Positions 9,347 to 47,411 of a stretch of DNA of 64,000 bases are shown here, one piece after another. The stretch lies in assembly GCA_019347945.1 (NCBI GenBank), contig JAHWKK010000007.1:62001-126000 (forward strand), read 5' to 3'. The position numbers and the translations under genes are program-made. This DNA is from Acidobacteriota bacterium (GTDB lineage: Bacteria > Acidobacteriota > Thermoanaerobaculia > Gp7-AA8 > JAHWKK01). The notes beneath the pieces were generated by a model, which saw only the letters and a list, made by a program, of their open reading frames with translations, had not been told where the DNA came from and did not search any database. Position 1 is the stretch's first letter; each line of letters opens with the position of its first letter.

Positions 9347-10159
9347 ATGGTGAAGCCGCTGATCGGGCTCCTGACGGATTTCGGTGTCCGGGATTCGTAT
9401 GTCGCGCAGGTGAAGCTGGTCATTGCCGGAAGGGCGGACTGTGATCTGGTCGATCTGAGTCACGAGATCGGACCTCAGGACGTGACGGGAGCGGGCATTT
9501 TTCTTCGCGAGATCCGGTCGGTCCTCGCTCGGGCGGAGATCCCGCGGCCGGTCATCATTGTCGCCATCGTCGACCCCGGCGTCGGTACGGATCGAAAGAT
9601 CGTCTGCGTGCGGAACGGGCGAGAGACGGTGCTGGCTCCGGACAACGGCATTCTTCCGATCGCCTATGGGGAAGCGCCTGAAATAGTCCGCGAAGTGAAC
9701 AACGAACGGCTCTTTCTCCGAAGCGGGAGTCGGACGTTCCACGGAAGGGACCGGTTCGCCCCGGTTGCGGCGGCGCTCGCGGCCGGCCTCGCTCTCGAGG
9801 AGCTCGGGCCTCCGCTCGACTGGTCGAGACTCGCTCGCGTCGGTTGGCAGGATCCGGTGTACGAAGCCGAGCTCGCGCGCGGCTCGATCGTATCGACGGA
9901 CCATTTCGGAAATCTGATCACTGATATCGAGGCCGATCGGATTGCCCATCTCGCGCCTTACGAGGTGACTGTCGGGGATCGTACGATCAGGATGATCCAC
10001 GCGAACTACTCCGATGCGGGGCGGTCGAACGAGCCGTTTCTCATCATCGGATCGCGCAACACCCTGGAGATATCGGTAAACCGAGGAAGTGCGGCACAGC
10101 TCCTGCAGCCGGAGCCGTTTGACGAAATAATCGTAAGATCAACCAAACGAGAGAGTTAA
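9347..10159 (+). CDS. SAM hydrolase / SAM hydroxide adenosyltransferase (DUF62)
   Basis: Members of this family hydrolyse S-adenosylmethionine to adenosine and methionine and are related to fluorinase and chlorinase. The 270-residue protein carries LLTDFGVRDSYVAQVK at the N-terminus, VDPGVGTDRK at about 84 and APDNGIL at about 104. These bind SAM and the nucleophilic water. FHGRDRFAPVAAAL and DHFGNLITDI complete the signature. Its physiological role is not established. Its TAA stop is immediately followed by the ATG of the transpeptidase gene, so the two are cotranscribed. Confidence 0.9.
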   Translation: MVKPLIGLLTDFGVRDSYVAQVKLVIAGRADCDLVDLSHEIGPQDVTGAGIFLREIRSVLARAEIPRPVIIVAIVDPGVGTDRKIVCVRNGRETVLAPDNGILPIAYGEAPEIVREVNNERLFLRSGSRTFHGRDRFAPVAAALAAGLALEELGPPLDWSRLARVGWQDPVYEAELARGSIVSTDHFGNLITDIEADRIAHLAPYEVTVGDRTIRMIHANYSDAGRSNEPFLIIGSRNTLEISVNRGSAAQLLQPEPFDEIIVRSTKRES

Positions 10160-11818
10160 ATGGCATATCGTACGACGCGACGAAGCAAGCTCACCCCGAT
10201 CCTTTTCACCCTCGTCATCCTCGCGGCGCTCGCCTGGTGGCTTGCCGGCATCCCACTATCCAACGCGAGGGACGCATGGGCCGCTGGAGATTACGCGGCG
10301 GCGAAGGCCTCGCTCGACAGGGGATCCCGCTTTCACCTGAGGCCGGCCGACTACGAACATCTCTATGCGGCGGTGCATCTCAGCGCCGGAGAGGATGCGG
10401 CTGCGAGGCCGTATCTCGAGAGCCTGGCTCAGAGAGACGCCGATTTTTTCTCTCCGATCTCGAAGTCGGAAGTCGCGGAACGTCTGGTGCGGGAGGGCCG
10501 CTATCAGGCGCTCATCGACTACGACACGATGGTCGATGAACGGCGTTCCGCGCCCGATCTGGCGATGTACCGGGCTGCGGCTCTGGCAGGAACCGGTGAG
10601 CTCGACAGCGCGCGATCGACTTTCGCAACGCTCGATGAAGGGAGTTTGCCGAAGGATCGTTACTCGACGCTTCAGCGTGCGATCGATCAGCGAGAAGAAG
10701 GGACCTATCCTCTTTTGCTCGATCGCGAGGGCGGTGTGATCGCGAGCTGGAACTCCGGAAACAACGACCTTGTGGCCGTCGACACGTCGTTTCTTCCTCT
10801 GGTGGATCGTGCGGGTGGAGCGGCATCGATCGAAGCGAATCTGGACTTCTCGACGGTCATCGGCCAGATCCAGACGACTCTCGATCCTTCCATCCAGCGA
10901 GCCGCTCGCGATGCCCTCGGCTCGCACAGAGGCTCGATTGTCGTGATCGATCCGGAGACACACGAGATTCTCGCGATGGCATCGTCGAAGGGAGATGGCG
11001 AAGAGCAGAACCTGGCGCTCGGAGCGACTTACGAAATGGCGTCGGTGATCAAGCCGCTCACGGCGGTTCAGGCGCTGCAGTCAGGTGTCGATCTCGGCGC
11101 GCTCTTCCCGATCGAATGCCAGGGATTCTCGATCATCGATGGCCGGCAGTTTTTCGACTGGGCGAGACACGGGACGGTTGCGGGCCTCGACGAAGCGATG
11201 GCGGTCTCCTGCAATGTCGCATTCGGTGCGGTGGCGCTCGAGCTCGGTGCTCCGCAGATCATCCCCTGGATGAAGTCGGTGGGATTCGGAACGAGTGTCG
11301 ACCTCGGGTTGATCCGGACCGGTCTCGGCACGCTCGTCGGCGATCCCCTCACCGACTTTCAGACGGCGAACCTCGGAATCGGGCTCGACCATTACCGGAT
11401 CAACACGATTCACCTCGCGATGATCGGAGACATGCTCGCGAATCGAGGCGTCTGGTCGCGACCGGTACTCGTTTCGAAGAGGTACTCGATTCTCGGTGAT
11501 GAGTTGGCGGCGGAACCGCCGCAGGTCGGAACACGCGTAGCCGACCCGGAAGCGGTGGAGAGAACGCTGCAGGCGATGGAAGCCGTCGTCGAGAACGATC
11601 GTGGCACGGGACGAGGGGCCAGAGTCGAGGGGCTCGACTACAGCATGAAAACAGGAACCTCCGGCTCGCGACCGTTCGATGCGCTGATCGTCGCAATCGT
11701 TCCGACGGAGAACCCGACGATGGTCGTGGCGCTGATCGCCGAGGGGGTGGGGCCTGCCGAACACGAGGGCGCGAGAATCATGCACTCCTTCCTCGAAAAG
11801 GTGCGAGGTCGGTTCTGA
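10160..11818 (+). CDS. Penicillin-binding protein, transpeptidase class, with TPR-like N-terminus
   Basis: One membrane helix (about residues 12-30) is followed by a helical, TPR-like region (about 35-180) and then a penicillin-binding transpeptidase domain. The catalytic set is visible: SVIK (SxxK, about 295), SCN (about 352) and KTGTS (about 497). The enzyme should crosslink peptidoglycan in the periplasm. At 552 residues it lacks the glycosyltransferase domain of class A PBPs and the usual PBP dimerisation domain seen in FtsI. The start abuts the stop of the DUF62 gene. The exact cell-cycle role cannot be told. Confidence 0.87.
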   Translation: MAYRTTRRSKLTPILFTLVILAALAWWLAGIPLSNARDAWAAGDYAAAKASLDRGSRFHLRPADYEHLYAAVHLSAGEDAAARPYLESLAQRDADFFSPISKSEVAERLVREGRYQALIDYDTMVDERRSAPDLAMYRAAALAGTGELDSARSTFATLDEGSLPKDRYSTLQRAIDQREEGTYPLLLDREGGVIASWNSGNNDLVAVDTSFLPLVDRAGGAASIEANLDFSTVIGQIQTTLDPSIQRAARDALGSHRGSIVVIDPETHEILAMASSKGDGEEQNLALGATYEMASVIKPLTAVQALQSGVDLGALFPIECQGFSIIDGRQFFDWARHGTVAGLDEAMAVSCNVAFGAVALELGAPQIIPWMKSVGFGTSVDLGLIRTGLGTLVGDPLTDFQTANLGIGLDHYRINTIHLAMIGDMLANRGVWSRPVLVSKRYSILGDELAAEPPQVGTRVADPEAVERTLQAMEAVVENDRGTGRGARVEGLDYSMKTGTSGSRPFDALIVAIVPTENPTMVVALIAEGVGPAEHEGARIMHSFLEKVRGRF

Positions 11819-15776: not shown

Positions 15777-18389
15777 GTGTCCGATCCGCTCCAGGCGCTG
15801 CGCGACGATGTCCGGATGCTCGGGACCGAGCTCGGCTCGGTCATCCGCGCGTTCGAAGGAGATCGGATCTTCGATCTGGTCGAGGAAATTCGGGATCTTT
15901 CGAAACGGGTGCGGCAGGGTGACGAGTCGGAGCTCGAGACGCTCCGCTCACTCCTTCTGGGCCTGAGCGTCGAGCAATCGCGAATCATCGCCAGATGCTT
16001 TACACAGTTTCTCAACCTCTCGAATGTCGCGGAGCAACACCACCGGATTCGCCGCCGTCAGGAAAAGGAGAGAGCGGGGCTGGTTCCTCAGGGATCTCTC
16101 GCCGATGTTGCGCGGAGGCTGATCGACGGCGGCAGAACGGCATCGGAGATCCTGGAGACCTTCGATCGCATTCGGATCGAGGTCGTGCTCACCGCCCATC
16201 CGACGGAGGTCCTGCGCCGGACCATTCTGATGCTCAACCGGAAAGTCGGCGAGTTGCTGGCGGCGCTCGACTCGTCGGAACTGACTCCTCGGGCGTCAAG
16301 CAGACTCCACGATGATCTCCGGCGAACGATCGAGATCCTTTGGAAAACCGAAGAAATCCGGCACGAAAAGCCTTCGGCGATCTACGAGGCGCGCGGGGGG
16401 CTGATGATTTTCGAGCAGACCATATGGAACGCCGTTCCTGAAGTGGTCCGCCGGATGGAGGAAGATCTGGAAACGATCGGAATCCAGCAGGATCCATCGT
16501 TCTCCCCGTTCCGTTTCGGTTCGTGGGCGGGTGGAGACCGTGACGGCAACCCGAACGTCACCGTGGGTGTCACGCGGCGAACCGCGCTTCGCGCGCGCTG
16601 GCTCGCGGCGGTCCTGTACCAGAGAGAGATCTCGCAACTGCGGAGCGACCTCTCCCTGAAGGAAGCCTCCGATGAGCTCCGAGCGATGTCTGGTGAGAAC
16701 GCGGAGCCCTACCGCGAAGTCCTCCATCAGCTCGAGCAGCGGCTTCGGACGACGATCGAGCAGGTCGAGCGGGCCCTCGAGGACGAAACCTACCAGCCCG
16801 GCGATCTGGTCAGGCACGAAGAGCTCCGGCAGCCGCTGATGGCCTGCTGGCGATCGCTGATCGAAACGGGCCACGAGACGATCGCGCGGGGCGGGCTTCT
16901 CGATCTGCTGCGCCGCGCCGCCACCTTCGGAGTGACGCTCGCGAAACTCGACGTCCGTCAGGAGGCGGGCAGGCACGACCTGGCGATCGCGGCGGCGACG
17001 GGGCTTCCGTTCGACCAATGGCCGCCGAGGCAGCGGGAGGAGTGGCTGCTGGAGCAGCTGGCAGATCCGACTCCGGCCGACGTCGATCAGGATCTCGACC
17101 CGGAGTCCCTCGAAACACTCGAGACCTTCCGGATGATCGGGTCGCTGCCGGAGGAGACATTCGGCGCGTATGTCATCTCGATGGCCGCATCCCCCGCCGA
17201 CGTGCTCGCCGTCGAGTGGCTTCAGCGAAAGATCGGCCGGTCTTCGCTTCGTGTCGTTCCCCTCTTCGAGACCCTCGAAGATCTTCAAAATGCGCGCGCG
17301 ACGATGGAGCGGCTGTTCGCCATCGACTGGTACCGGGAAGTCTGCGGCTCGAGCCAGGAGATCATGCTCGGCTATTCCGATTCAGCCCGTGACGGAAGCC
17401 GTCTCGCTGCGAACTGGGCGCTTTACCAGACGCAGGAAGATCTTGCGGGGCTGGCGCGACGGGAATCGTGGAACCTGACGATCTTTCATGGACGGGGAGG
17501 AACGATCAGCCGCGGAGGCGGCCCCACCCGTGTCGCCATCCGGTCGCAGCCGCCCGAAAGTATCGACGGTCGGATGCGGGTCACCGAACAGGGGGAGATG
17601 ATTCAGGCTCGTTTCGGTCTGGAGGAAATTGCCGAGCGAACCCTCGAAGTCTATGTTTCGTCGATCCTCGAAGCGGCCCTCACCCCGCCAACCGAGGTGA
17701 GGCGGGAATGGCGGGAGCTGATGAGCAGGATCAGCGCGACTTCCGCCGATTCGTACCGCGAGATCGTTTACTCCACACCGAGCTTCGTCGATTATTTCCG
17801 GCACGCCACTCCGGAGCCCGAGCTCGGAATGCTCAACATCGGGAGCCGTCCGGCGAGGAGACGCGCGGGAGGAGGGGTCGAGAGCCTCCGTGCGATCCCC
17901 TGGGTGTTCGCGTGGACACAGACGAGACTGCTTCTTCCGGCATGGCTCGGCGCCGATGAGGCTCTCCACGAAGCGATCGAGGAGGGGCATCTGTCGACGC
18001 TGAGGGAAATGTACGAGCAGTGGCCATTCTTTCAATCGACGATCGATCTGATCGAGATGGTTCTCGCGAAGTCATCACCCTCGATCGCCGCTCGCTACGA
18101 CGCAGTTCTGGTCCCCGATGATCTCCGTGACCTCGGAGAGACGCTGCGCGAGCGGCTCGCACGAGCGGTCGCGGTCATCGGGAAGGTCACCGGAAGAGCG
18201 AACCTGCTCGACCAGAACCGTGTGCTGCAACGCTCGATCGAAGTCCGGAATCCTTACGTCGATCCGATCAACCTGATTCAGGTCGAAGTACTCCGAAGGC
18301 TCCGGGAGGAAGGGCACGCTGAAGGGTTGTTCGAGGCCTTCGTCACTACGGTCAATGGAATCGCTGCCGGAATGCGAAACACAGGCTGA
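15777..18389 (+). CDS. ppc: Phosphoenolpyruvate carboxylase
   Basis: The enzyme carboxylates PEP with bicarbonate to give oxaloacetate, refilling the TCA cycle. At 870 residues it is full length. Catalytic marks are VVLTAHPTEV (about 137), GSWAGGDRDGNP (about 248), MLGYSDSARDG (about 529) and FHGRGGTISRGGGP (about 570). The C-terminus ends MRNTG where the family has QNTG. The start is GTG at 15777 with AAGGTGGGAG upstream. icd in this window is another TCA enzyme but is not linked. Confidence 0.96.
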   Translation: MSDPLQALRDDVRMLGTELGSVIRAFEGDRIFDLVEEIRDLSKRVRQGDESELETLRSLLLGLSVEQSRIIARCFTQFLNLSNVAEQHHRIRRRQEKERAGLVPQGSLADVARRLIDGGRTASEILETFDRIRIEVVLTAHPTEVLRRTILMLNRKVGELLAALDSSELTPRASSRLHDDLRRTIEILWKTEEIRHEKPSAIYEARGGLMIFEQTIWNAVPEVVRRMEEDLETIGIQQDPSFSPFRFGSWAGGDRDGNPNVTVGVTRRTALRARWLAAVLYQREISQLRSDLSLKEASDELRAMSGENAEPYREVLHQLEQRLRTTIEQVERALEDETYQPGDLVRHEELRQPLMACWRSLIETGHETIARGGLLDLLRRAATFGVTLAKLDVRQEAGRHDLAIAAATGLPFDQWPPRQREEWLLEQLADPTPADVDQDLDPESLETLETFRMIGSLPEETFGAYVISMAASPADVLAVEWLQRKIGRSSLRVVPLFETLEDLQNARATMERLFAIDWYREVCGSSQEIMLGYSDSARDGSRLAANWALYQTQEDLAGLARRESWNLTIFHGRGGTISRGGGPTRVAIRSQPPESIDGRMRVTEQGEMIQARFGLEEIAERTLEVYVSSILEAALTPPTEVRREWRELMSRISATSADSYREIVYSTPSFVDYFRHATPEPELGMLNIGSRPARRRAGGGVESLRAIPWVFAWTQTRLLLPAWLGADEALHEAIEEGHLSTLREMYEQWPFFQSTIDLIEMVLAKSSPSIAARYDAVLVPDDLRDLGETLRERLARAVAVIGKVTGRANLLDQNRVLQRSIEVRNPYVDPINLIQVEVLRRLREEGHAEGLFEAFVTTVNGIAAGMRNTG

Positions 18390-18418: not shown

Positions 18419-21172
18419 GTGCCCACAATGATCGCAACGAAGGACGGAGAACAGACGCTGCTCGTGACGTGGCCGATTCTATTCGGCTTCGTTCTGGTGC
18501 TGCTCCGGGTGATCATCCTCGCCACATTCGGAGGCCGGGGGCTCGAGTCGATCGACTTTATCGGGCTGCTGATCGGACTCGCGGGCCAGATCGCTTTCGG
18601 GTTGTTGCTGGTCCTGCCGCTCCATTTGCTTCGAGCTTCCTCCTTCCGATGGCTGATTCATCTCGGTACGCTGCTGGTCGTTTTCGTCAACGTTGCGGCG
18701 TTTCATTTCGAGGCGGTTTTCGGAAGGCTTCCGGGAGTCGATCTCCTCTATTACCTGCGTGAAGCAACGCATCTCCTTTCCTCGATTGCGGCGAATGCGC
18801 CTTTGGCGGCGGTCGCCCTCGAGGTGGGGGTGGCAACCGCGATTCTCATCCTCGACGCCGAGGCGCTATCGCGAGGAAATATCGAGGGAAAAGTCGCGTG
18901 GCGACGCCGGCTGCTGCGGGTTGCTGCCGCAATATGTGTCGTTTCGGCTGCCCTGACCGCCGTGGTTCATGCCTTCCCTTCGGTCGTGCCGTCTCGGATG
19001 TCCAGCGAGAGCCGCGTGCCGATTTTCCGAGCGATCCAGACCTGGCAGCTCCGGAGCACGGTGAAGATGGCAGGGGAGGATCTGCAGCGGGCCGACGTCC
19101 TGGCTTTTCAGCGGCTCCTCGGACATCGCGCGCCATTCGGTGGAGTCGACCAGCGCTATCCGCTCTGTGCGACGACGCCTCGGAATCCTCAGCGCACGGG
19201 AAACGATCGAAGTGCGATCCTGCTGGTTCTCGAGAGCGTCGGGCTCGAGGAGATGAAGATGGTTCATCGCGGCGAGCTCGTCATGCCCGCGCTCAACCGG
19301 ATCCGGTCGGAGTCGGTCTCCTTCGAACGATTCAAGGCATCGGGAAGCAAGAGCGTCCAGGCGATGCCGGCTCTCTTCGCGGGCGTGCCGCCCCAGCCGG
19401 CTCAACACCTTCTGTGGAGGCGGCCACTGAACAATCTCGACGGTTTTCCCCGGATCCTGAAAGGGAAAGGGTACGAAACGTCCTATTTTCACGGCGGTGA
19501 TCTGTCGTTCGAGCAGCAGCGGACATTTCTCCAGATGGTCGGCTTCGAGGAGCTCTTCGAATATGACGTATCGGCGGGGCATCCATTTCTCGGATGGGGA
19601 CACTCGGATGATGTGACCTTCGCGGAGCTCAGGCGATGGATCTCGGGGCGAAGAGAGGACGGATCGACTGCACCCTGGTTCGCGACGCTGTTCACGCTGA
19701 CGACGCATGATCCCTATATTCTCCCGCCCGAAAGGGAGCACGTCTTCGAAGGTGAAGGGGATCGGGCTCGATTCATCGAGACTCTGAGGTTTCTCGACGA
19801 GCAGCTCGGCTCGTTCTACGAGTGGTTTCTCGAGAACGAAGCTCCGCGCGGGACGCTGCTCCTGGTGACCTCGGATCACGCACCGCATCTCGAAGGAGAA
19901 CGGCACGTGGAAGATCACGAGGTCACGCGATTCGACGTTCCACTCCTGATTCATGGCGAGGGACTTCCAGCGGGACGGACGTTCGACCGGCTCGGCGCGC
20001 ATTTCGATCTTCCTGCGACGCTGCTGGGGCTGCTCGATCTTTCGCCCGGACCTTGCGACCAGGGTCTCGATCTGCTCGTCCCTTCGTCGGAGTGGCCCGA
20101 TGAGCGGATCGTCTACGCAGTGACGGGCGACAACGCCGAAGAGTTCCACGTATGGTTTTCGGATGCTGCAGTGCGGCTCGATCTGATCACGAAACGGGTA
20201 TCGGTTCAGCTCTACGGCGAGCCCGCGGCGGATGATCTCGATCGTCATTCGCGCGCTGCCGTCGGGATCTGGGAACTGGCGAGCCGCATCAGCAGTCACC
20301 TCACGCAAAGCGACGGATTTGCGCCCGCCCCCCGCGCCGCGAGGAGCGAGGTCTCCCCGATTCCCCCGGTCGCACGTCCGCGGTTCGTCGCTCACCGCGG
20401 CCAGAGCCGGGGGGAGGAACCGCCGGAGAAGCAGAACAGGATCGAGACGATCGAGCTGGCGATCGCCGACGGATTCGAATGGGTCGAGGTCGATGTGAAC
20501 CTCACGGCCGATGGCCACCTCGTGCTCGTTCACGACACCGTCATCCGTGAGGCGCCAGGCGTGATGCGAGCCGTCTCGTCGATGACGCTCGAAGAGCTTC
20601 GCGGCCTTCCGGGCTATGAGAACGTCGTCACCCTCGAACAGGTGCTTGCGGAGCTCGGAGAGAAGGTGAATTTCCTGGTTGAGGTCAAGCCGCAGGGGAG
20701 CTCGCTGCTCGAGAACGAAAAGATCGCCCTCAGAGCCTCCGCCGTCGTCGCCCGCCGCACCCCGGGAAAAGAGATCGTCATGGACAGCTTCTCACCGCTG
20801 ATTGCCAGCACGCTCGCCCGCCAGTGCCGCTGCGAAGTCGGCATCGACGCTTCGGGAGACCGGCCGATCGACTCGCGGTGGGTCGACGAGGCTTCTCGCA
20901 ACGGACTTTCGTGGCTTTACGTCGACCACAGGCGATCCTCGCCCGAGCTCATCCGGTACGCCCACGAGCAAGGTCTTCGAGTCCTGGTTTATACGGTCAA
21001 CTCACTCGCTGAGATCGAGCACTTGCGCCGGGAGTGGCCCGACGCCATCATCACGGATACGGCGGAGCTGATGAGTGCGTGGGAGACGAGGGAGGCTGTC
21101 AGTCCTTCCGACGCCGGAAGTCGAGGTATTTCTGAAGGCTCGGAAGAAGCACAGCGGCGAGTGCGATCTTGA
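18419..21172 (+). CDS. Membrane LtaS-like phosphoglycerol transferase fused to a glycerophosphodiester phosphodiesterase
   Basis: Five membrane segments lie within residues 15-185. They are followed by an alkaline-phosphatase/sulfatase-fold domain of the LtaS/OpgB type (about 260-600) with SGSKS at the nucleophile position, FHGGD, GWGHSDD, THDPY and TSDHAP. From about residue 655 to 900 a GDPD domain follows, with AHRG, WVEVDVNL, LVHD, VEVKPQG and TDTAELM. Both catalytic domains should face the periplasm. The first could transfer glycerophosphate from phosphatidylglycerol and the second could cleave glycerophosphodiesters; the combined role is unknown. The start is uncertain: GTG 18419 or ATG 18428. 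The 3' end overlaps the convergent bioY gene by 74 bases. Confidence 0.85.
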   Translation: MPTMIATKDGEQTLLVTWPILFGFVLVLLRVIILATFGGRGLESIDFIGLLIGLAGQIAFGLLLVLPLHLLRASSFRWLIHLGTLLVVFVNVAAFHFEAVFGRLPGVDLLYYLREATHLLSSIAANAPLAAVALEVGVATAILILDAEALSRGNIEGKVAWRRRLLRVAAAICVVSAALTAVVHAFPSVVPSRMSSESRVPIFRAIQTWQLRSTVKMAGEDLQRADVLAFQRLLGHRAPFGGVDQRYPLCATTPRNPQRTGNDRSAILLVLESVGLEEMKMVHRGELVMPALNRIRSESVSFERFKASGSKSVQAMPALFAGVPPQPAQHLLWRRPLNNLDGFPRILKGKGYETSYFHGGDLSFEQQRTFLQMVGFEELFEYDVSAGHPFLGWGHSDDVTFAELRRWISGRREDGSTAPWFATLFTLTTHDPYILPPEREHVFEGEGDRARFIETLRFLDEQLGSFYEWFLENEAPRGTLLLVTSDHAPHLEGERHVEDHEVTRFDVPLLIHGEGLPAGRTFDRLGAHFDLPATLLGLLDLSPGPCDQGLDLLVPSSEWPDERIVYAVTGDNAEEFHVWFSDAAVRLDLITKRVSVQLYGEPAADDLDRHSRAAVGIWELASRISSHLTQSDGFAPAPRAARSEVSPIPPVARPRFVAHRGQSRGEEPPEKQNRIETIELAIADGFEWVEVDVNLTADGHLVLVHDTVIREAPGVMRAVSSMTLEELRGLPGYENVVTLEQVLAELGEKVNFLVEVKPQGSSLLENEKIALRASAVVARRTPGKEIVMDSFSPLIASTLARQCRCEVGIDASGDRPIDSRWVDEASRNGLSWLYVDHRRSSPELIRYAHEQGLRVLVYTVNSLAEIEHLRREWPDAIITDTAELMSAWETREAVSPSDAGSRGISEGSEEAQRRVRS

Positions 21173-21698
21173 CCAGGTCTCCGGTGATGAACGGAGCGGT
21201 ACCCGCGAGAAACGCCTGTTTTGGCCCGAGCCCCATCATCGAGGCAAGCCACGACCATCCGAACAGGTGAATGATCGCGAGTCCGATGGTCATCATCGCG
21301 ACCGTTCGAAGGGGTGAGCCACTCCACCCTTTTTCCGAAAGCCGGCCCGTGACCCATGCGACGATCGGGTACGAGAGGAGATAACCTGCGGTCGGGCCGG
21401 CAACAAGCCAGAAGAGGCCGGCTTTTCCATTCGCGAACACCGGAAGACCGATGGCGCCCTCGAAAAGGTAGAGAGCTGCGGCGGCGAATCCTCGAGTCGA
21501 TCCGAGCAGCGCTCCGACCAGCAGGATCGCCATCGGCTGGAGCGTCATCGGAACGGGGGTGAACGGCAACGGAACCGCAACCTGCGCTGCCACCGCGATG
21601 ACGATCGAGGCACTGATGACGATCAGGAAGTCCCGGAACCGGGTATTTCCGGCGGTTGCGATGATCCAGGAGGGGAGGGTACGGGTCGGCTCGCTCAT
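21099..21698 (-). CDS. bioY: Biotin transporter BioY
   Basis: BioY is the substrate-binding S component of ECF-type biotin uptake. The 199-residue protein has six hydrophobic segments and the BioY marks PFTPVPMTLQPMAILLVGALLG, GAIGLPVFANGKAG and GPTAGYLLSYP. No EcfA or EcfT gene is adjacent, so it either works alone or shares an energising module. It starts 20 bases after the stop of the RND exporter gene and may be its distal operon partner. birA, which uses biotin, lies 6 kb away on the same strand. Confidence 0.93.
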   Translation of the reverse strand: MSEPTRTLPSWIIATAGNTRFRDFLIVISASIVIAVAAQVAVPLPFTPVPMTLQPMAILLVGALLGSTRGFAAAALYLFEGAIGLPVFANGKAGLFWLVAGPTAGYLLSYPIVAWVTGRLSEKGWSGSPLRTVAMMTIGLAIIHLFGWSWLASMMGLGPKQAFLAGTAPFITGDLVKIALAAVLLPSLQKYLDFRRRKD

Positions 21699-45539: not shown

Positions 45540-47411
45540 TTGAGACGAGTCGTCGTCGGAACGGCCGGCCATATCGATCACGGGAAGACGGCGCTGGTCG
45601 GGGCGCTGACCGGGATCGATACCGACAGGCTCCCCGAGGAAAAACGGCGCGGGATCACGATCGACCTCGGGTTTGCGCGTTTGCTCGCCGATGACGTGCA
45701 GTTGAGCCTGATCGACGTCCCCGGCCACGAGCGGTTCGTCCGAAACATGCTCGCCGGCGCCTCGGGGATCGATGCGGTGCTGCTCGTCGTCGCAGCGGAC
45801 GAGTCGGTGGCACCGCAGACCGTGGAGCATTTCGAGATCTGCCGGCTGCTCGGGGTGGAGCGAGGGGTCATCGCAATCACCAAGGCGGACAGGGCGACCG
45901 CGGACATGATCGAGCTCGTACAGCTCGAGCTCGCTGAGCTCGTCGCCGGCACTCCGCTCGAAAGCGCGCCGGTGATCGTGACGAGCTCGAAGGAAGGGCG
46001 CGGCATCGAACAATTGAGGGAGGAGCTCATTCGTCTGGTTCCCCCGGAGGAGGCGGAGACGGATGATCGCGTCTTCCGGCTCCCTGTGGATCGAGCCTTC
46101 ACGATCCGTGGATTCGGAACCGTCGTGACCGGTACGGTCGCGTCGGGCTCGTTTGCCGCGGGATCGAACCTCGTCGTCATGCCGGAGGCGCTTCAGTCGA
46201 GGGTCCGCCGGATCGAGATTCACGGCTCCGAGCGCGACCGCGCGGTTGCGGGGGACCGGGCCTCGCTGAATCTTCCCGACCTGGAGGTTCGCGATGTTCA
46301 ACGGGGAGTACAGCTCGTCGAGCCGGGAACGCTGCGGCCATCGCGTCTTCTGACCGTCGAGCTCGACCTCCTCCCGGCTGCGGCAGCTCTCAAAGACGGC
46401 GTCCGGGTCCGCGTTCATCATTTGACGATCGAGGCGATCGGGCGCGTGCGGTTGCGCGCGAAGAAGCGGCTCGAGCCCGGGGAGAGAGAGATCGCCCGGA
46501 TCCATCTCGACCGGCCGGTGACCGCGGTCGCAGGCGACCGGTTCGTGATCCGGACGTACTCTCCCGCACGGACCATTGGTGGGGGAGTGATCCTCGATCC
46601 GCATTTGCCGCGGGGAGGGCGGAAGTTCTCGGTCGCGGACGTTCGTCAGCTCGCGGGCGCATCGGTCGTGGAGAGAGCCGGATGGATGGCGCGAAGAATG
46701 GGAGCGCGCGGAATCACGCTCGAGGATCTCGTTGCGGTGACCGGCCTCAAGCGCGATCGCATCGGGCGGGAGCTCGCTCCGGGCGGAATGCTGATCCCGA
46801 TCGGCGACCGGTGGCTCGATCCGGGCGCCATCGACGATCTCGACGCGCGTGTCGTGAAAAGCCTCGAGGAGTTCTTCGCGTCGACTCCGCTCTCGACCGG
46901 AATGCCGCGCCGCGAGCTCGTTCAGAAGACCTTTCCCGCGGGTCTCGCCGTGGACGCCGGGGCCGCGCTTCTCGAGCGGCTCCGTCAGCGAGGACGCATC
47001 ACGATCGAGGGGGATGTCGTCGATCTGCCGGGTCGCGAGAAGCGTCCGGAGGGCGTGGAGGGATCGATCGCGGACCGGGTGGAGGCGTGCTTTTCGGATG
47101 CCGGGCTGGCCCCTCCGGGTCTGCGCGAGGTCCAGGACGAGGTGGGCCACAAGCCGAAAGTCGTTGAAGGCGTTCTCGGGTTTCTTCTGAAGGAAGGGAC
47201 GCTCGTCCGGCTCGCCGACGGTCTCTGGGTACACCGCGACGCTCTCGATTCGGCCGCCGCCAGGGTCCGGGAGCACCGGGGAGAAACGCACGACGTCGCC
47301 TGGTTCAAGGACCTGTTCGGTCTGACGCGCAAGGTCGGCATCCCGTTGCTCGAATGGTTCGACGCGAACGGGGTGACGAAGCGCGTCGGGGATCAGCGCA
47401 CGATCCTGTAG
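45540..47411 (+). CDS. selB: Selenocysteine-specific elongation factor SelB
   Basis: SelB brings Sec-tRNA to UGA codons by binding a SECIS hairpin. The GTPase domain has [11 protein letters not shown] (8-18), DVPGHERFV and TKAD. Two EF-Tu-like beta domains follow, with [22 protein letters not shown]. Then come tandem winged helices that end [32 protein letters not shown], typical of SelB. The length of 623 residues is normal. The start is TTG 45540. No selA, selD, tRNA-Sec or obvious selenoprotein lies in the window. Confidence 0.93.

Follow-up and report, generated by a model that had tools for sequence, protein, structure and literature searches.

OpgB (phosphoglycerol transferase I) of Escherichia coli is reported to move phosphoglycerol from phosphatidylglycerol, and a dgk strain given arbutin accumulates diacylglycerol (PMC3818809). 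Lipoteichoic acid (LTA), which also derives from phosphatidylglycerol, is composed of sn-glycerol-1-phosphate, and very small amounts are freed from it by the GlpQ enzymes of Bacillus subtilis, E. coli and Staphylococcus aureus, described as cleaving sn-glycero-3-phosphoryl esters only (Walter et al., PMC7086022). LpgD, another member of the GDPD family, is reported to convert lysophosphatidylglycerol to lysophosphatidate via a cyclic intermediate (PMC10404611). Here a gene was analyzed that joins a sulfatase-fold domain of the LtaS/OpgB kind to a GDPD domain on one chain. It occupies positions 18,419..21,172 (+) of a 64,000-nucleotide stretch (the window) of contig JAHWKK010000007.1, from an Acidobacteriota bacterium (GCA_019347945.1).

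The fusion gene (C7:80419-83169 in contig coordinates) starts with GTG, with an ATG at codon 4, and encodes 917 residues. No internal stop was found between the GTG at 18,419 and the stop ending at 21,172. Upstream of the GTG the frame is open for only 4 more codons (921 residues in all), so the N-terminus is fixed to within a few residues. An earlier note on this DNA had described a 917-residue protein with five membrane helices, a sulfatase-fold domain and a GDPD domain, and this layout was borne out by the open reading frame (ORF), the hydropathy scan and the Pfam matches. The five predicted transmembrane helices (residues ~19-184; 18,473..18,970, +) are centred at residues 29, 57, 88, 136 and 174, with no segment beyond residue 190. 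R30 and R164 are invariant across a 27-row alignment. The loop charges fit a predicted N-in/C-out topology, with the N-terminus inside and all residues after 185 outside the inner membrane, which would make both enzyme domains periplasmic. The note had also taken the host for a diderm, in line with its phylum, Acidobacteriota, which is diderm. RpoA agrees with this phylum, its nearest counterparts being those of two Acidobacteria metagenome-assembled genomes (61 and 60%; 18 of 20 named genomes gave a match); full-length ValS, at 50-54% to genomes of Acidobacteriota, Nitrospirota and Gemmatimonadota, did not separate these phyla.

The first enzyme domain (residues 267-540; 19,217..20,038, +) scored 117.6 bits with Pfam Sulfatase PF00884 (cut-off 25; 8.6e-34). 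Its best match among solved sequences was VP1736 of Vibrio (3lxq, 1.3e-27), followed by Listeria LtaP and LtaS. The predicted structure model of the fusion protein (mean predicted local distance difference test score, pLDDT, 70.7) matched 3lxq with Z 27.1 (root-mean-square deviation, rmsd, 4.6; 322 aligned), LtaP 4uop with Z 26.7 (rmsd 3.2; 286 aligned) and LtaS 2w5q with Z 25.6 (rmsd 3.1; 280 aligned). In the same 27-row alignment E272, H430, D486 and H487 are invariant. The predicted nucleophile, Ser312 (19,352..19,354, +), stands in a column that holds Thr in LtaS and most relatives, with Ser in some relatives and in VP1736. E. coli OpgB and a Bacillota LtaS line up with it at the metal and nucleophile columns; YejM differs. 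A domain search for these residues had been proposed, since their loss would speak against a transferase, and E272, S312, D486 and H487 were all found to be kept.

The description of this half as an LtaS/OpgB-like transferase was confirmed at the level of the superfamily but not at that of LtaS itself. The layout of the LtaS/OpgB/YejM superfamily is present, namely membrane helices followed by PF00884 with a metal Glu, a Ser/Thr nucleophile and Asp-His. With the solved LtaS and LtaP of Gram-positives (2w5q, 4uoo, 4uop) the domain shares the fold, the metal Glu, the Ser/Thr, the Asp-His and the His corresponding to His358 of LtaS. Nevertheless, it reached only 46.4 bits with the LtaS equivalog NF053595 (curated cut-off 970), and LtaS W354 and R356 (S. 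aureus numbering as given in PMC7576196) are replaced by E365 and Q367, in columns set by the W-x-R spacing of Listeria and Bacillota LtaS. On its sequence, the fusion protein is not a bona fide LtaS. OpgB shares the fold and the aligned columns; the scores with the OpgB models PRK12363 and PRK03776 were 30.4 and 18.4 bits, far under the cut-offs of 572 and 574. VP1736, which the PDB lists as an uncharacterised protein, and the diderm "LTA synthase family proteins" have in common with the fusion protein the sulfatase-fold domain, a Ser at the nucleophile column and a GG..F motif; they differ in lacking a GDPD and in carrying a T/S-x-R-x-x-E motif that the fusion protein has lost.

The earlier note set LtaS-type enzymes, as best known from Gram-positives, against the diderm look of this genome; by the searches, LtaS-like proteins are no peculiarity of Gram-positives. 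Of 398 Pseudomonadota genomes searched with the whole protein, 72 gave a match; in 6 it lay in the GDPD alone, and the remaining 66 matched the first domain at E ≤ 1e-12. VP1736 itself ranked ahead of the Listeria proteins. A half of the LtaS-like kind is thus nothing unusual among diderms.

The GDPD domain (residues 659-882; 20,393..21,064, +) scored 94.5 bits with PF03009 (cut-off 23.6; 1.5e-26), and the match covers profile positions 1-242 of 244, in agreement with its description as complete-looking. In alignments with UgpQ, GlpQ and 12 relatives, H659, R660, E690, D692, H705, E755 and K757 fall in matching columns; relative to UgpQ and GlpQ, the catalytic His pair (H659, H705) and the metal Glu/Asp/Glu (E690, D692, E755) are kept. 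The TIM barrel, the His pair, the Arg and the metal residues are likewise shared with LpgD. E. coli UgpQ, in contrast, is a separate, cytosolic protein, and the score with the UgpQ equivalog NF006989 was 69.1 bits, below the cut-off of 264. In the predicted model the ten-residue blocks of residues 651-890 had pLDDT values of 67-97, mostly above 85, and the best of the matching GDPD structures was 3no3 (Z 28.6; rmsd 2.3, 229 aligned). The GPDPase_memb-GDPD proteins (PF10110 + PF03009) resemble the fusion protein in joining a GDPD to an N-terminal membrane domain, whereas the membrane part of the fusion protein is LtaS-like, with a catalytic domain of its own and no PF10110. In a weakly resolved GDPD tree, whose rows did not include an empty one (L122) or the Pseudomonadota cassette GDPDs described below, the GDPD of the fusion fell within a 31-row set holding some PF10110-linked GDPDs, where it joined other long branches. 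As a separate observation, the GDPD barrel (window 20,339-21,169; model residues 653-892) also matched two multidomain beta-1,3(4)-glucanases, 7ww4 (Z 27.1) and 7wwc (Z 27.5), over their residues 8-240; in these a GDPD-like domain is joined to a glycan enzyme.

The two domains are separated by a Pro/Ala-rich linker (residues ~624-652; 20,288..20,374, +), with pLDDT below 50 at residues 624-643. A chimeric assembly, or a frameshift merging two genes, was considered as the origin of the joint. In favor of such an artefact, no second fusion was found, and the third-position G+C content rises modestly at the joint, from about 0.72 (0.70-0.76 up to residue 640) to 0.81 in the end of the linker and the GDPD; in the last 27 codons it falls to 0.43. 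Against it stand the single long open frame holding both domains, the natural type of linker and the long contig, which reaches at least position 147,276 and extends at least 64 kb past the gene on both sides. As judged from the assembly, without reads, nothing in the composition points to a broken frame. A sequencing error at the joint, named as a possible objection in the earlier note, is thus very improbable, and the artefact was rejected in spite of the G+C step. Among unfused LtaS-like or sulfatase-like ORFs, 49 of 55 stop 71-148 residues past the local match, which itself ends at about query residue 540-570, and this is roughly where the GDPD starts in the fusion protein; the other 6 comprise one that is cut short (37 residues) and five weak matches with 409-470 further residues. 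As far as sequence can tell, the fusion is confirmed as real and intact, with one occurrence so far.

Further fusions were sought with the whole protein in 60 genomes of relatives (E ≤ 1e-3), 396 of the same phylum (1e-12), 148 of the same class (1e-16), 398 of Pseudomonadota (the phylum of an Alcanivorax genome; 1e-12) and 398 of Bacillota (that of a Parvimonas genome; 1e-10). The host genome is part of the first three sets, which overlap, and the relatives' set held no other member of the host's genus or family. Besides the fusion gene itself, none among the matches listed spans both domains; since at most 2 candidates per genome (phylum, Pseudomonadota, Bacillota) or 6 (class) were scored, a fusion with two weakly matching halves could escape. 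A scan for loci related to the protein gave 36 pattern matches, none of them a relative. A GDPD-weighted scan of named genomes returned at least 592 stretches, at least 493 of them relatives, of which the best 80 were all GDPD matches and none was fused. No plasmid or phage record covered 80% of the query in one place, although 64 plasmid and 158 phage records matched in part. A profile search of the ORFs of 197 loci found both domains only in three overlapping copies of the fusion gene itself, and a literature search on LtaS, phosphoglycerol transferase or LTA together with GDPD found no paper on such a fusion. These results support the rarity of the fusion and stop short of uniqueness. Both halves are known parts, and within the data covered here their combination is new.

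The six long-frame GDPD ORFs that were scanned carried GDPD alone (1), a MutY-like part (1), FGGY kinase (2) or PF10110 (2), with no LtaS fusion. In one of them GDPD shares an open frame with MutY-like HhH-GPD and NUDIX domains (L180:2671-5121), and in two with an FGGY kinase (L181:2254-4734, L183:1-1953); each of these may be a fusion or a read-through. In the Pseudomonadota sample, an open frame of 1423 residues (G591, L178:191-4459) also holds an LtaS-like domain, at residues 771-1419.

The function that we tentatively favor is that of an inner-membrane, periplasm-facing, bifunctional phospholipid-headgroup enzyme, in which the GDPD would salvage sn-glycero-3-phosphodiesters or lysolipids beside headgroup transfer. 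We infer both activities, their substrates and their coupling. The fold and the retained residues suggest that a metal ion bound by E272, D486, H487 and S312 would activate S312, which would take the sn-glycerol-1-phosphate headgroup off phosphatidylglycerol; the headgroup would pass to water or to an acceptor in the envelope, and diacylglycerol would be left behind. At the same membrane surface, the tethered GDPD barrel would hydrolyse sn-glycero-3-phosphodiesters or lysophospholipids. By motif analogy with His51/His93 of LpgD, the attack would proceed via the free 2-hydroxyl, with H659 and the metal acting as base and H705 as acid, and would yield glycerol-3-phosphate or lysophosphatidate, from which lipids could be made anew. 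The tether would hold lipid turnover and salvage together, and the GDPD would not be required to undo the product of the transferase. This proposal is supported by both domains exceeding their Pfam cut-offs, by their match to solved enzymes in the predicted model and by the retained catalytic residues. The lone GDPD of the host genome and the unfused neighbour pairs in Pseudomonadota and a clostridial metagenome-assembled genome (MAG), both detailed below, were also counted in its favor, as were the reactions reported for OpgB and LpgD. If both domains work, one gene of an Acidobacteriota bacterium would join, at the periplasmic face of the membrane, the transfer and the hydrolysis of glycerophosphate bonds that stem from phospholipids. 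It would then offer a handle on the role of diderm LtaS-like proteins and allow a test of whether a GDPD accepts the sn-glycerol-1-phosphate enantiomer.

Several observations weigh against this proposal, apart from the replacement of W354 and R356. Ordinary sulfatases match the predicted model nearly as well as the LtaS group (Z 23.8 for 6ust and 22-23 for several others), so the fold leaves the reaction of the first domain unsettled. The T-x-R-x-x-E motif of most relatives reads S312-V-Q-A-M-P in the 27-row alignment. In a quick-method tree of 96 catalytic domains, with the other sulfatases of the genome among the rows, the first half lies outside the 59-row LtaS-like clade (support 90), on a long branch of 2.51 changes per column, and the fork that joins it has a support of only 57. 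In the GDPD the PENT motif is altered to PEKQNR, with a three-residue insert and Q672 at the usual Glu column, while UgpQ shows no such alteration. Motifs of the PENT type are common in GDPDs and are not required for the Pfam cut-off: among 80 named GDPD ORFs, 61 carry xENT/S and 15 of the 19 others xEHT/S, and the Glu is absent at this place in two. OpgG (PF04349), the maker of the OpgB acceptor, was not found in the host genome by a search whose E. coli control was positive, and this makes an osmoregulated periplasmic glucan (OPG) route unlikely. Nor was a DgkA-type diacylglycerol kinase (PF01219) found in the genome, a YegS-type kinase not having been sought. Finally, a GDPD ORF was present in the flanks (mostly ~9 kb, shorter where the contig ended) of 0 of 47 LtaS-like loci, which indicates that the coupling is not general.

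The divergence of the first half, with a best identity of 28% and the loss of residues kept by its relatives, could also mean that the GDPD is the working enzyme and that the LtaS-like half serves as a membrane anchor or lipid sensor, in the manner of YejM/LapC. The annotation of E. coli lapC (yejM) is that of a lipopolysaccharide signal transducer, and GDPDs on another membrane domain, PF10110, do exist, some of them within the 31-row set of the weakly resolved tree. We consider this explanation doubtful, though it deserves attention: E272, S312, H430, D486 and H487 have all been kept despite the divergence, which suggests selection for catalysis, and for YejM itself a case has been made that it is a metalloenzyme and acts as a phosphatase (PMC7576196). 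Alternatively, the first half may act on lipids or sugars as a phosphodiesterase, phosphatase or sulfatase rather than as a transferase. The Ser in place of Thr, the LtaS substrate residues that are not kept, the missing gene for the known OPG acceptor and the sulfatase matches at Z 22-24 would all agree with a plain hydrolase. We nevertheless hold it to be improbable, as the best sequence and profile matches are membrane proteins of the LtaS/OpgB/YejM type.

The earlier note had instead suggested remodelling or recycling of a periplasmic glycerophosphate product, that is, a transferase that adds glycerol-phosphate to a periplasmic glycan and a GDPD that removes it. The physical fusion, the two retained catalytic sets and the osmotic theme hinted at in two related Pseudomonadota genomes, where similar genes are neighbours and lie with a gene for an MscS-type channel, speak for it. 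Against it, opgG was not found in the host, and the suggestion conflicts with the stereospecificity reported for GlpQ: the products of LtaS-type enzymes are sn-glycerol-1-phosphate, hardly cut in LTA, whereas the GlpQ enzymes studied cleave sn-glycero-3-phosphodiesters only (PMC7086022). By extrapolation from these family members, which are not close ones, the GDPD should not cut the bonds made by its partner unless its specificity has changed. This explanation appears unlikely. Its narrower form, a single-chain diderm system in which a GDPD of changed stereospecificity, altered PENT motif included, cuts the sn-glycerol-1-phosphate bonds of its partner, is a long shot.

With respect to the favored bifunctional enzyme, the genome content and the unfused pairs were considered. 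The host genome (3.72 Mb, 49 contigs, 99.65% complete) holds 11 sulfatase-family places, the fusion counted, and its sole GDPD over the cut-off is that of the fusion; a separate GDPD match occurs in 10 of 18 genomes of the same order. In two related Pseudomonadota genomes a gene for an OpgB/LtaS-like membrane protein of the sulfatase fold is followed 33-34 bp on by a PF10110-GDPD gene and then by a gene for an MscS-type mechanosensitive channel (L238:7629-14139; L239:5696-12154), a cassette that suggests an osmotic link. The two cassette sulfatases are 83% identical and read SDE where the fusion protein and most relatives read SDH or GDH/ADH. The L187 and L188 cassettes were drawn from GDPD regions chosen for long frames and give no estimate of frequency. 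In the clostridial MAG the order is reversed, with the LtaS-like gene starting 31 bp after a PF10110-GDPD gene (L141:4885-8905). An LtaS-profile ORF was found in 3 of the best 80 GDPD loci (L101, L137 and L141); L101 and L137 were dismissed as such neighbours, because of the two LtaS-profile ORFs in each, the one that was scanned is an ordinary sulfatase, and L141 remains. A DgkA-like ORF lies near 3 of the 47 LtaS-like loci, and also near a Methylophaga plasmid locus, which fits phosphatidylglycerol use and diacylglycerol release in the wider LtaS-like family.

In the window, a phosphoenolpyruvate carboxylase gene (15,777..18,389, +; ORF list and domain profiles) ends 29 bp before the fusion gene, and co-transcription of the two is possible. 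An antisense ORF (18,866-20,533) overlapping the fusion gene was taken as a shadow of the high G+C content. Downstream, a terminator-like hairpin (21,311..21,325, +) was located by consensus match only, one of 4 in the region against 2.0 expected. Elsewhere in the window, a SelB-like selenocysteine elongation factor is encoded at 45,540-47,411, and no tRNA gene was found in the window. At 9,347-11,818, a SAM hydroxide adenosyltransferase-type gene is directly followed by a penicillin-binding transpeptidase gene.

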